From Exobasidium rhododendri (lineage: Eukaryota; Basidiomycota; Exobasidiomycetes; Exobasidiales; Exobasidiaceae): a stretch of 64,000 nt of DNA. Both the position numbers and the translations under genes were made by a program. The DNA lies in the NCBI GenBank assembly GCA_026210745.1, contig CP110631.1, positions 3,720,001-3,784,000 of the forward strand, read 5' to 3'. Of this stretch, positions 56,515 through 64,000 are shown piece after piece (within the stretch, counting starts at the first letter, position 1; each line of letters begins with the position of its first letter). Below the pieces are notes generated by a model. It made no database searches and was not told the DNA's origin. It saw nothing but the letters and a program-made list of their open reading frames with translations.

Positions 56515-59500
56515 TCAATGCTCGCTGTGTAACAGGCGCTCCACCGCTTTCTCCCATTCACCCCAATCTGTCGCAAATGTCTTCCCCATTGACTCGACCG
56601 GGGGCGCACTGGCAGGCTGTAGTGGAAGAGGGGCATGATTTTCATCTGGAGCTTGCTGGTGATGTGATTGCTGCTGATGAAGGAGATGGCTGTGATCTGC
56701 GTCGTGTTTGTCCCACGTAAGTATAGAATTGTAGCTGCTTTGACCATTGTGTTGCTGCGCAAGGGATGATGCCCATGTATCAGAAGAGGCTGGCACGCCA
56801 AACGTCCCTTGCAAGTTGTTGTTGTTGTTGTTGTTGTTGCTATTGTTGCGATCTGGCGACCAGTGTGGATCGCTCCTTGCATGGTCTACCTGTGCGGCCA
56901 GTAAATCTAGTCCGGTGGAGTGATGAGAAGTAGGTAGGCCTCTCGGATGGCTGCTTAATGCAGCTGCTGTACTGCCACCCCCAGATGCATTCAATAGACC
57001 GTAAACTTCGTGGAAGGGTCGATCGACGTAGACTCCCATTTCTGCATTCAACTTCAGGTCATTAGCGCCAGCTGCAGCCTGTGTTGCAAAGACCTGTAGA
57101 TCGTTAAAGTCGAATCCAAAAGATTGATGAGGAGCAACCTCTTCGAATTGATTGGCACTTGCGGAGAGAGTGCCATCGCCATCGATGACGCTGCCATTCG
57201 TATGACTCGCATCAGCAGCGGCAAAAGAAGTATAGTCGTTGCGATCCGAGGTAGAGGGTGTGGCGTGGGATGCTCGATTGGGGTAGCCTTGTCCACCCAA
57301 CTTCTTGCCATCTCCTTCCGCTACAATAGTGGGAGGAACCCCAATAAAGTAGCCAGGCACGTTACCCAGCACATTAATTTTTGGTGGGTGCGCAGAGTCG
57401 CTCCCTCGATTGGCTTCCCCGATTTTGCTCTTCTGCTGAGCTATGTCGATTTCCCTCAACGTACTTGCGTATCGTTGGGCCTGTTCGGCGATGAATCGTA
57501 ATCCTGCCTTACCTGCAATCAAATCCAACGTTCTCACAGCCTTGTCCAAGGAAGGCCTCGCCAATACGGCGAAGGTGGAGACTTCATTCCCGTTGTTCGT
57601 AGGACCGCAGAGAGCGCTCTGAATGGCAATTACAATCGCTGCTTGAAAGCAATAGAAGATGCAGAAATTGTAAAGCACATAGGGCGGGCCAGGACTTCGT
57701 GTGACGATGGACCAGATTAACCATATCAGCCTTTGAGCAGAGTCAATGCAAACTTCTAGTGATCGTTGTGCTTGGCCTTCCGGTGGCCTCCATTGACCGG
57801 TCCCATCTACTTGAGGTCGGTGAATCTGAATACTCACGCTCAGACTGATCATGCAGAGTAGAGAATCCTGCAGGTACCTCGTCTGTTCTTCAGGATCTTC
57901 CTCTACGATGGCCCTTTCACTCTCTTGGTCAATCGCACCACCTAGAACACCTAGTTCGTTCCTCTCTAATACTCTTCCTAGACTCTTGGGTAGATTACTT
58001 TTCCAATTTTCATAGGCTTCGGCGAAATTCTGATTATCTTTACCGGAACTGGAAGAGGAGGTGCCTTTTATCAGTACTTCGGTCAACTGGAATTTCGCCA
58101 AATGGAAGTCAAAGTTCGCTCTGGAGATGGGGTGTGCTTGGAAGTTGCTTCTTCTTCCTTCCACTACAAAAGGCTCAATCAAGCCTGCTCGCTTGTACAA
58201 GCCCAACAGAGCTTCGTGATTATCGGGAAATTGCGTGTCGTAGCTGTCGGGAAGTATGTTGGAAGGTTGGACCACTCGATCCGTGTGTAGGACTTCAAAC
58301 ATGGCTACATTCCAGAACATATTCTGTCGTGCTTGTGCTTCTTCGGCTCCCATAGACTGCCAATTTCGAGTGTCTCGATTGAGAGCAGCGGCGTGAGCAA
58401 GTCGAAGAGTGACAGCAAAACAACTGCCTGCGAATTGAAGGTGAAGTTCCGATAAATGCCATAAGCCTCGCAACAAGTTGGCACGTATAAGATCCAAGGG
58501 AGCAGAGAATGCGCTGGCCCAATTGGATGGGCAGGCAATTTGGAGCGCATCGATGCATCTGCCAGCAGTCTCGAGTAGTTCCTTCTCTGAAGAGCAAGAT
58601 TCGACGTACTCATCGTGTGGCGTCTGTGCCCGACTTCTGGGCATACCACCGGGTATCAAATCACTTCTGTCATTTTCTATCTTGAGGTGGTCACCCTTGT
58701 TTTGCTGTTTTCCTTTCGACTGTCGAAAGGAGGAGGAATTACGAGTCGTTCGTCTTGCTTGAATGGCCAAAGCAAGGATGACGAGTAGTAAGGGAACAAG
58801 TGGTGGATCTGCTGGTAGTGTCTGAGGGTTGCTGTGGTACCAGTTGATAAAGTTCTCGAACCTGCTTCGATTGAGATCAACGACCACTACATTGCACAGC
58901 CATTCCACGTTTGCCCGGTAGGTATCTAGCAAAGGTCCCAATTCTCTGATCGTCGGTAACTTCAACGACGTCACTGCTGCTGGTGGATTGTAAAGCTGAG
59001 CAGACCCGTCTTTGGCTGACGTTTTGGGCGTGCCGAATAGGACCGATCCTATCGCTGCTGCTCTGGCACATCGCACTCGAACATCGAAGTCCAGAGATTT
59101 GTTCTTCCCCGCATCGTACGTGGCAGAAATCAGGTTCAACCGGCGTGTCGCCAGGGAAGCGCTGATGCTAGACCCACGTTGATTTCCAGAGGTCTCCGAT
59201 GTGCCTTTGACAGGTTTGTTGCGACTTGAGCCATCCTCAGACGGGCTCCTCTTCGTGCGTCTGAGCAAGGAAAAACATTGCAGCGTCAATGCTCGGAGTC
59301 GCACTCGTCTAATTCTTCAGCCTCTTTCTTACTTTGCATCCTTTTCTCCCTCACCCGCCAGCACCTCTTGTGCTCCTTCAACAGTGTCAACATAGGTACA
59401 CATTCCCCCTCTCGAATTGCCAACATCGCAATTCCCGCATACTGGCCTTTGACGGTCACACTGGAGAGAAGGAGGGAAGCTCGTATTTTGTGAGTTCCTT

Positions 59501-60373: not shown

Positions 60374-61039
60374 ATGCGATCACTGCCGATGCTGTTGATT
60401 GGTCTGCTCCTTTGCTTGTGCTGGGCTGGCCTACCTGCGCAAGCAGCATCAAGTAATCCCCATCTCTGCCGTTGCACATGTTTCGTCACCAATACCACCA
60501 TTGTTCCCCTCTTCTCACCGGTCGACCCTCAAAACCCTTGTACAACCTGCACACGACAATTCTGCTTGAACCAAGGACTAGAAGCTTGCAAAGGAGCCAG
60601 GATCGAAAGGCCAGATGCAGATACGGGGACAGGCTGGGAAGGCGAAGTGTGGGCAAAGTGTTTGCGTAAGTTGACAGTGTGTGGATTTGAGTTTCTGGGA
60701 TTAGAAGCTATGCTGAAGCGGTCTCTTTCACCCTGCCTACAGGGCCCGATTCAAACAGAGACAAGACTCTTATATCACTATACGTTCTTATCATCCTTGG
60801 CTTGCTTGCTATTGCCACTTTCCGAGATCGGGTTGAGGGAATCATGGGGGTACGTTTTTACCGCTTTTTACGGGATAGAGGTGGGAAGGTGAATGATGCG
60901 CTTACTACTTTTCTTTTGGATCCCATCACCCAGAATATTCACCTACACAGTCTATCAGGCGTCTATCGATCGGTCATGGCATCGTCTTGGCTTCAAGGAG
61001 CTGTATGGAACCGTCGGCAATAGGCAAAGACGAACGTAG
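60374..61039 (+). CDS. Small Cys-rich signal-peptide and single-pass membrane protein, unknown function
   Basis: Proposed exons are 60374-60665, 60743-60849 and 60959-61039 (159 residues). If the last intron is not removed, the frame ends at 61023 with a different tail. A clear signal peptide (MRSLPMLLIGLLLCLCWAGL, cleavage likely after AQA) precedes a lumenal or extracellular domain with many cysteines (LCRCTCFVTNTTIVPLF, NPCTTCTRQFCLNQGLEACKG). One membrane helix (TLISLYVLIILGLLAIATF) and a short basic cytosolic tail ending GNRQRRT follow. The CxCxC...CxxCxRxFC pattern recurs in uncharacterised fungal proteins as I remember them, but I cannot assign a function. The three-exon model is preferred because it uses a GTACGT donor and yields a plausible tail (WHRLGFKELYGTVG). 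Confidence 0.65.
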
Positions 61040-61131: not shown

Positions 61132-62536
61132 TCATAATTGCACAGCTTCCTTGATTCGCCTGACAAAGACTGAAGCGCTCTCGATCTTGAGCCCCATCTC
61201 TTTCTCATACTGAGGCGGCAATTTCTCCACCACTGCTGCGTCCGACTTGTCTTTTTCCACACCCAGATATCGCAACCTCGACGCATCTTCTTTGTAAGTT
61301 CGCAGCAGAAAGATCAAGCTACCTTTTGCGACTTTGTTTGTACCAGCTTTCCTTGCTTCTGTGTGCGAAGTCAAGCTCTCGTAGATGGTGGCTTTCCACT
61401 TGTGTCCATCTGCTTCTTCGGACTGCATTTCCAACTCCACCCCTCCCAGTGCTTCCAGTACTTGCAACCTAGCTTCCAGTCTGGCGATTCGATCTCGCAA
61501 TTTGCTATTATCTAACTCTCGCTGCAATGCACTCCCTCTCAGTCGCTGCATCTCTTCCCTTGCCCTACTTTCTGAATCGTCAGAGGACCGCTGAGTGCCG
61601 TTATGGGTCTTGTAGCTGTCTCCTTCGTCATCATGAACTCCGGGCAGGGAGGCATGAGAGGCAGTCGGGCTGGGACTTAAGACCGGCTCGTGCAAACCTA
61701 GCTTCTGCTGCCCATTTTTTCCATTGTATTTGCTCTCTCCTGATCCATTTAACCGGTTGTGCGTAACGAGCAATGACATTGGATCAGTAGTATCGGACGT
61801 CTGTTATAAAGCCAGATTTGGTTCAGTATTCTTGCTCGCTTGTGAGCTTCTGACCTTCTAAACTCACTCGAATCTCTTGCCAGATCTTACTTTTGTCAAA
61901 GCTTCGAAGCGCCTTATCGAAATCGAAATCTTCTTGTAGATCAGGCTCATTTGCCTCAAGTGCTGTTGCTCTTGACTGTGCTTTCTTCTTGCTCTTCGTC
62001 TGCTGCTTCTTCCCATTTCTCGCAGGTTCGTATTCGGTCTCATCTTCCGTGTGTGTCCTGGAAGACACGCCTAAATCGACAACAACATTTTTTCCGCCCT
62101 TCGCCTTTGCTGCATTTCGAGGCCGAGCAGATGTGCCCACCTCGTTCTTGTTGAGTGACAGACCAGCAGGCATACGCGACACAAGCACTGATGATTCCGT
62201 TGACGGCAGGAGGTTAGCTACGTCTGCATTATGTTTGGCCTCGGTAGTGTAGGATATGATTGCAGGATCATTGAACTGGGGAGGATGAGATTGAAGCGAG
62301 TGTGTAGTTACTGGTATCGATGCAGGTCGTGCTTTCATTGCTGTTCTTGACGCCAAGTCCTCAGAAATCATCTTCAGATCAGCGATCTCGCTTCGTGTCA
62401 CTGAGACTAGACCCCCATTGCCTTGAAGGATGCACAATGTCCCTGTTGTAGTGTTTATATCAATGATCTTCCCTGTGACCACGCCATCCGATTGCAGCTG
62501 CACCTCTACAGTCAGGCCAAGGAAAGAAGATGACAT
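61132..62536 (-). CDS. Edc3-type LSm+FDF protein fused to a Csm1/Pcs1-like C-terminal domain
   Basis: Proposed exons are 62536-61868 and 61800-61132 (445 residues); an in-frame ATG at 62614 would add 26. The LSm domain at residues 1-60 (MSSSFLGLTVEVQLQSDGVV) matches Edc3, the decapping activator of P-bodies. The FDF motif (EDFDFDKALRSFDKSKIW, about 202-219) runs without a break over the 67-nt intron into QEIR|TSDTTDPMSLLVTHNRL and then KLGLHEPVL, all Edc3-like. The YjeF_N domain expected next is missing. Instead there is a coiled coil (about 298-342) and a ~100-residue globular end (SLIFLLRTY, RLRYLGVEKDKSDAAVVEKL, ASVFVRRIKEA) that resembles the Csm1/Pcs1 C-terminal domain of monopolin. Edc3 front: high confidence. 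Csm1 likeness: moderate, by eye. It shares a 237-bp divergent promoter with VPS18. Confidence 0.78.
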
Positions 62537-62773: not shown

Positions 62774-64000
62774 ATGGACATGTTCGAGGAGTGAGTCACA
62801 CTTGAGACGTGCAGGGTGGATGGAAAGAGAGAGAAGACCAGGCTGAAATTTGTCATGTCTGCTGCTTCAGCTTCGTCCAGACATCTCGGTCTGCGCCTCA
62901 GCTGCAAACGGGACAAGGAGGCTTCGAACAGGACGAAGGTGGTCGGAATCTCGATCCTGTCACTGCTCTTGAGACCGGTTTTGTGTCTAGTGATGCCTAC
63001 CAACATGATGCATCTTTGCCACCCATATTCCAACTGGGTCGAGTTCAGTATGCCTTCTCCGCCCCTTTAGCTTGTCTTACCGTCTCGTCCAATCTTCTCA
63101 CCATGTGCTTGTACGCCTACCCTTCGCCATCTCGATTGGCTCAAAACGCCGCAAACTTGCCGGCACCACCAAAACTGGTACGAATCAATCTCGACGATCC
63201 GGAAAAGACGCTAGAGGCTGAGGTACCCCTTCCACCGCTTCCAAGGCTGCGTAATGCACCGCCTTCAGATCCTTCACTGCTAGGACCGCACAAGATGTTC
63301 GCAGATCCTAGTGGTAAACACCTCGTCTTGACGACGAGAAACGGCGACAATTTTTACTGGATATCTGGGTGGAAGAGGGCGAGGATATTGCCTCGACTGA
63401 AAGGAATTGTTATTGAGAGCATTGCATGGCGTCAGACAGGAGAATCATCTCAACGAGGAGGAAAGTTGCATCTTAAAGGACAGACAAGCAATGCTTCTAC
63501 TATCATTTCGACGGGCGAGATCTTGATAGGAACACAGTCTGGTGATATCTTTGAGACGATGCTAGTGACCCAGACACCACATGACGCAGAAGACGGCGAC
63601 TTTCTCGATCGTTTGGCCAGGAGGACTGCGCCGAGTGGGCCAGAAGTTGATCGATACCTTCGACACCTCTTTCGACTTCCAGAGAGGCAGCCCATCACGG
63701 GACTATGTAGCGAGATCTTCAAGACCGGGTCTCCTTCTCGTGCCGCTGTGGTTGTGACGACGAGTACGCGAATTTACGAATTCGTGGGTGAACTAGGCAA
63801 GGGAAGAAGTGACTATGACAGTAATGAAGGGGAAGATCTGTATGAGAAGCTTTTTGCTCCTTATCGCGGCGATGTCATACCTAATCTAAGTGAGTTTCAC
63901 AAGTTCCCAGAGAGGAGCGACAAATCCAGAACCTTATTGACAGAACGTATGTCCATGTCCAGGATCCGAGCTGCCAGGTGACTTGCCGTACTCCGAGTTG
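62774..64000 (+). CDS. VPS18: Vacuolar sorting protein Vps18/Pep3 (5' part, runs off window)
   Basis: Proposed exons are 62774-62790, 62871-63889 and 63963 onward, truncated by the window end. The 17-nt first exon encodes MDMFE and joins D|FVQTSRSAPQLQ. The last junction restores the family motif ELPGDLPYSEL. Vps18 is a core subunit of the HOPS and CORVET tethering complexes on vacuole and endosome. The visible ~360 residues are the N-terminal beta-propeller: LLTMCLYAYPSP, RINLDDPEKTLEAEVPL, HKMFADPSGKHLVLTTRNGD, LKGIVIESIAWRQ and STGEILIGTQSGDIFETML. The alpha-solenoid and RING finger would lie beyond 64000. The reading frame appears to stop near 63981 only because the second intron is read through. 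Confidence 0.92.

Follow-up and report, generated by a model that had tools for sequence, protein, structure and literature searches.

The decapping scaffold Edc3 (enhancer of mRNA decapping 3), which takes part in the degradation of messenger RNA, has the domain order LSm-FDF-YjeF_N. As stated in a review and an NMR paper, its LSm domain binds the leucine motifs (HLMs) of Dcp2 in S. pombe (PMC8984151), its FDF motif binds a helicase (PMC8984151, PMC6778109), and its YjeF_N domain forms a strong dimer that is essential to the phase separation of Edc3 (PMC6778109). A second system that has to be considered here is the kinetochore protein Csm1/Pcs1, in which a coiled coil is followed by a small domain; for Csm1, a further article describes a hydrophobic peptide-binding cavity (PMC6823300). 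The gene described below, from the rhododendron-infecting fungus Exobasidium rhododendri (Exobasidiomycetes), encodes the N-terminal half of an Edc3-type protein joined to a C-terminus in which the YjeF_N domain is not detected, and the first-pass annotation of this locus had read that C-terminus as a Csm1/Pcs1-like kinetochore domain.

The window, i.e., the whole stretch of 64,000 nucleotides that was analysed, corresponds to positions 3720001-3784000 of contig C2 in an assembly of 17.6 Mb and 4 contigs. The gene lies on its minus strand, complement(62536..61868, 61800..61132), and gives a 445-aa product with the order LSm, linker, FDF, post-FDF segment, predicted coiled-coil helix and an end of approx. 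100 residues, without YjeF_N. Exon 1 (61868..62536, minus strand) encodes the LSm domain, the linker and the first half of the FDF motif (aa 1-223); it is separated by an intron of 67 bp (61801..61867, phase 0, GTGAGT...ACAG) from exon 2 (61800-61132), which ends in the stop codon at 61132..61134. The clean GT-AG intron that had been proposed at 61800/61868 stands, since the identical splice join is present in the public protein CBS101457_004426 (P0003), which is 100% identical to the Edc3-like protein across 85% of its length. This public model has 379 residues and begins at Met67, so that it does not include the LSm domain encoded by the DNA at 62357-62536 (minus strand); it appears to be a shortened gene model. 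In P0004, a relative from a JGI metagenome, the LSm begins at the equivalent position, and the predicted protein terminates in EIRVS, which looks like a read-through into the same intron donor. Because the join of P0003 and the LSm start of P0004 agree with the model, the exon structure looks sound and the LSm domain looks to belong to the gene. Besides, the post-FDF segment and the C-terminus share one exon, where they form a single unbroken frame of 223 aa, and therefore the layout of the protein does not depend on the splice.

As for the genes that surround this locus, part of a Vps18/Pep3-type gene is found in divergent orientation at 62806-63981 (plus strand), with a PF05131 match of 118.9 bits across the scanned part 63109-63888. 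Small ORFs at 60374-61023 (plus strand) are convergent with the Edc3-like gene; the first of them contains cysteines and has, by eye, a signal-peptide-like start, and no Pfam match was obtained for these ORFs at E values up to 0.01. A large ORF on the minus strand, at 56518-59316, carries a fungal transcription factor domain (PF04082, 25.9 bits).

The N-terminal half of the protein was identified by its similarity to Edc3, as had been claimed at the outset. With aa 1-264 as the query, phmmer ranks S. pombe EDC3 (4a53) first among the solved structures, with an E value of 2e-4 that belongs to the whole sequence and is composed of an LSm stretch of 11.0 bits, weak when taken alone, and a stretch of linker and FDF that adds 14.9 bits; the six remaining PDB matches have E values from 0.26 to 1.7 and include two further EDC3 chains. 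The LSm domain (aa 1-60; 62357..62536, minus strand) is delimited by this similarity to EDC3 (4a53 and 4a54) and by its conservation in P0004, with 44 of 60 residues identical; the linker is looser (60 identities in 120 aligned positions) and the FDF motif is almost identical (28/30). The Pfam scan of the protein reported no LSm model. A BPL_C match across the LSm region, of 20.1 bits with the whole protein and 21.3 with exon 1 alone for a cut-off of 21, was taken as chance. The FDF motif in turn exceeds its Pfam cut-off (PF09532, 30.7 bits versus 26.1, aa 200-252); its exon 1 part covers aa 194-223 (61868..61957, minus strand), and the match reaches aa 252 in the post-FDF segment (aa 224-264, SDTTDPMSLLV ... 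KLGLHEPVL; 61678..61800, minus strand).

The LSm domain, closest among solved structures to that of S. pombe EDC3, the FDF motif, the post-FDF segment and the order of these parts are shared with Edc3; however, where Edc3 has YjeF_N, the E. rhododendri protein has a coiled coil and an unclassified end of approx. 100 residues, and for this reason the sequence would be better described as Edc3-like than as a canonical Edc3. Scd6/Lsm14 proteins also present an LSm domain followed by FDF; nevertheless, the Edc3-like protein differs from them in that it lacks the RGG-rich tail and that the LSM14-type LSm model (PF12701) was not reported for it.

No match to YjeF_N (PF03853) was found by Pfam within the 445-aa chain, and the C-terminus is continuous with the post-FDF exon; the earlier view that YjeF_N has been replaced in this layout was thus borne out. 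It had also been advised to look in the genome for a separate EDC3 bearing YjeF_N, and here the outcome was negative. The genome-wide YjeF_N search gave two exon matches that belong to one gene at C1:4930507-4931162 and none near the window. The reading frame at C1:4930507-4931162 includes AGPGNQGGDGLVAARHL, and no FDF match was found at that locus, which we take to be an NAXE-type epimerase. Likewise, a search of the 17.6-Mb genome for FDF revealed two loci only: the Edc3-like gene, detected by its exon 1 part alone with 22.9 bits, under the cut-off, and a locus at C3:3809306, where the exon upstream of the FDF match encodes an LSM14-type LSm domain (PF12701, 44 bits), indicating a separate Scd6 gene. 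A second Edc3 with YjeF_N was therefore not found in this assembly by a search that proceeded exon by exon, lacked a fungal Edc3 as its positive control and might overlook a divergent copy split by introns. From these sequence searches, the Edc3-like gene is the sole Edc3-type scaffold found in the E. rhododendri assembly.

The C-terminal part begins with a predicted coiled-coil helix at aa ~297-342 (61444..61581, minus strand). A first AF2 model, obtained without an alignment, shows a helix at aa 297-342 and little else, with no strands in the C-terminus (mean pLDDT 47.3); within this helix the block from aa 297 to 326 is fairly confident, with pLDDT values of 74-81. The top heptad score falls at aa 304-331 and was equalled by 47 of 1000 shuffled sequences, so that a coiled coil in this region may be considered modestly supported. 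The remaining residues (aa 343-445; 61135..61443, minus strand) form a putative domain of unclassified family, with no Pfam match above the cut-off, no notable sequence match in PDB and no paralogue reported in the E. rhododendri genome. Matches to PUB (E 0.13 and 0.055) and to Cauli_AT (E 0.1 and 0.085) lie under the Pfam cut-off and, like the PDB match to HSL1 (E 0.14), were taken as chance. Modelling of aa 323-445 alone, also without an alignment, was poor (mean pLDDT 53.1, helices and no strands), and only around aa 383-390 and 399-403 do crude propensities indicate clear strands.

In protein searches that scored 7996, 3418 and 117 candidates, only P0003, the protein itself, and P0004 matched, and no relative with this C-terminus came to light. 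These searches required exact words shared with the query and therefore do not show that other fungi are devoid of this layout; in addition, one of them left out proteins of less than ~245 aa, and a separately predicted exon 2 ORF from the contig of P0004 would escape it. A scan of viral contigs with P0004 gave no relative. Among the titles and abstract openings listed for Edc3 in the open-licence PMC literature, none describes an Edc3 with such a C-terminus, and Edc3 and Csm1 appear together there in a single paper, on doxorubicin repair.

The proposal that the end of this protein is a kinetochore domain, i.e., a diverged Csm1/Pcs1 coiled coil and globular domain fused to Edc3 that would supply a dimeric, cavity-bearing head for peptide binding, could be evaluated against the protein encoded by the same genome. 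A separate PCS1/CSM1 gene, whose possible presence had been raised beforehand, is indeed found on C2 (~1859221-1860426, minus strand); it is spliced from three exons into 349 aa and shows PF12539 at 36.9 bits, with the Csm1 domain interrupted by an intron. When its domain was compared with PDB, all 8 matches at E values up to 10 were Csm1 (best E 0.017), and this PCS1 is thus a good control for the detection of Csm1 by sequence. Since the genome keeps this gene, the Edc3-like protein is not a relocated monopolin subunit. The LRS4 family search was silent everywhere, controls included, and says nothing on Lrs4/Mde4.

The Edc3-like C-terminus would resemble Csm1/Pcs1 in its predicted coiled coil, which is followed by a small domain of similar size. 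By eye, the succession of a helix, strands, an LP-x-Y motif and two helices is Csm1-like in order and spacing, and a distant relation is possible; this order presumably also fits the wider RWD-like group, and at the position expected for the first Csm1-like strand the crude propensities point to a helix. The family model separates the two proteins: in one scan PF12539 gave 37.0 bits with PCS1 and 25.7 bits with a 67-aa piece of it, whereas at E values up to 10 it was not reported for the 109-aa C-terminal domain or three pieces of it; nor was it reported for the Edc3-like protein (E up to 5) or other C-terminal pieces (E up to 10), although the HMMER filters discard most matches above about 0.1 and such an absence is no measured score. 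A profile built from the Csm1 of S. cerevisiae and C. glabrata finds PCS1 with 15.5 bits, a score reached by 0 of 3000 shuffles and 0 of 119 ORFs; in contrast, it returns no score for the 109-aa domain and -1.0 bits for a 123-aa version, a value as good being obtained by 1421 of 3000 shuffles and 15 of the 119 window ORFs. With PCS1 alone as the profile, the C-terminal domain scored 0.0 and 0.2 bits (826 and 759 of 3000 shuffles, and 11 and 10 of the 119 window ORFs, did as well). When the yeast pair and PCS1 were combined, the three-sequence profile gave 2.4 bits for the 109-aa domain (120/3000 shuffles) and 2.2 bits for the 123-aa domain (130/3000), with 0 of 119 window ORFs as good in both cases, and in an earlier run with aa 323-445 a score as good was seen in 86 of 2000 shuffles; these sequence scores are a marginal hint of a relation to Csm1. 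The hhalign comparison of the C-terminal domain with the three-sequence profile had a P value of 0.095, versus 3.2e-5 for the PCS1 control, which was compared with a different profile, that of the yeasts. Finally, the pairwise alignment to PCS1 is at the level of chance, with 2027 of 5000 shuffles as good for domain against domain and 999 of 5000 for domain against whole protein. A Csm1/Pcs1 identity is therefore not supported by the Pfam models, by the pairwise alignments, by our own profiles or by hhalign. Of the coiled coil with a Csm1-like globular end that had been described at first, the coiled coil is retained, modestly supported, and the kinetochore identity of the globular end is not confirmed; the resemblance in sequence amounts to at most a weak hint that does not warrant filing the domain as Csm1, and we consider a fusion with a diverged Csm1/Pcs1 quite improbable.

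An alternative explanation is that YjeF_N was simply lost, and that the FDF motif is followed by a tail which evolves fast and forms no dimers, multivalency being supplied by Scd6 and other factors. The failure to recover a relative of the C-terminus in the protein, PDB, Pfam and own-genome searches, the low confidence of the AF2 models and the presence in the genome of an Scd6 with FDF all agree with such a loss; nevertheless, the last ~150 residues do not have the appearance of low complexity, and their heptads and hydrophobic stretches look folded, as judged by crude measures. We regard this explanation as rather unlikely. It could also be argued that the layout is an artefact of the gene model or of the assembly, with two genes merged or with a YjeF_N exon further along the true mRNA, given that introns of this small size might be placed wrongly. 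This is very hard to reconcile with the single open frame that holds both the post-FDF segment and the C-terminus, with the agreement of the public model CBS101457_004426 and with the lack of any YjeF_N match near the window in the whole-genome search, and it is given hardly any weight. The reading that we favour, by a modest degree of confidence, is that of a variant Edc3 in which the coiled coil and the unclassified domain would stand in for the dimerisation of YjeF_N. Given that the YjeF_N dimer is essential to phase separation, its loss should open a gap for another dimeriser. The more specific version, in which an unrelated coiled-coil dimer bearing a Csm1/RWD-like head took the place of YjeF_N, seems unlikely to us.

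The partners that such a variant Edc3 would need are in part recognizable in the genome. A Dcp2 gene (PF05026) is present on C1, at about 3168951-3171471 (minus strand), and encodes a long, proline-rich tail. When 435 aa of this tail are read as a single open frame, the LLxx[LIVM] motif occurs 7 times versus 1.14 expected, and 0 of 5000 shuffles attain this number; the strict form LLx-hydrophobic-L occurs 3 times, which 8 of 5000 shuffles attain. By analogy with the family, the LSm domain of the Edc3-like protein would bind the leucine-rich motifs in the tail of Dcp2, and the helicase Dhh1 would be the partner bound by the FDF motif. The coiled coil and the small end domain would then pair two chains and keep the protein bivalent, and this C-terminal pairing may have replaced YjeF_N as the dimeriser behind the clustering of decapping complexes and the assembly of P-bodies. 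As a speculation, if the end of the protein is Csm1-like, it might also carry a hydrophobic peptide-binding cavity of the Csm1 type.

A fungus whose only detected Edc3 is devoid of YjeF_N offers a natural experiment on whether one dimeriser can serve as well as another. Provided that the C-terminus dimerises, bivalency would be separated here from the YjeF_N fold and from the patch of this fold that binds disordered regions. Should an unrelated dimer bearing a Csm1/RWD-like head indeed have taken over from YjeF_N, the fold of a kinetochore protein, with its peptide-binding cavity, may have been brought into mRNA decay, and it would follow that the scaffolding of P-bodies requires bivalency and not the YjeF_N fold.
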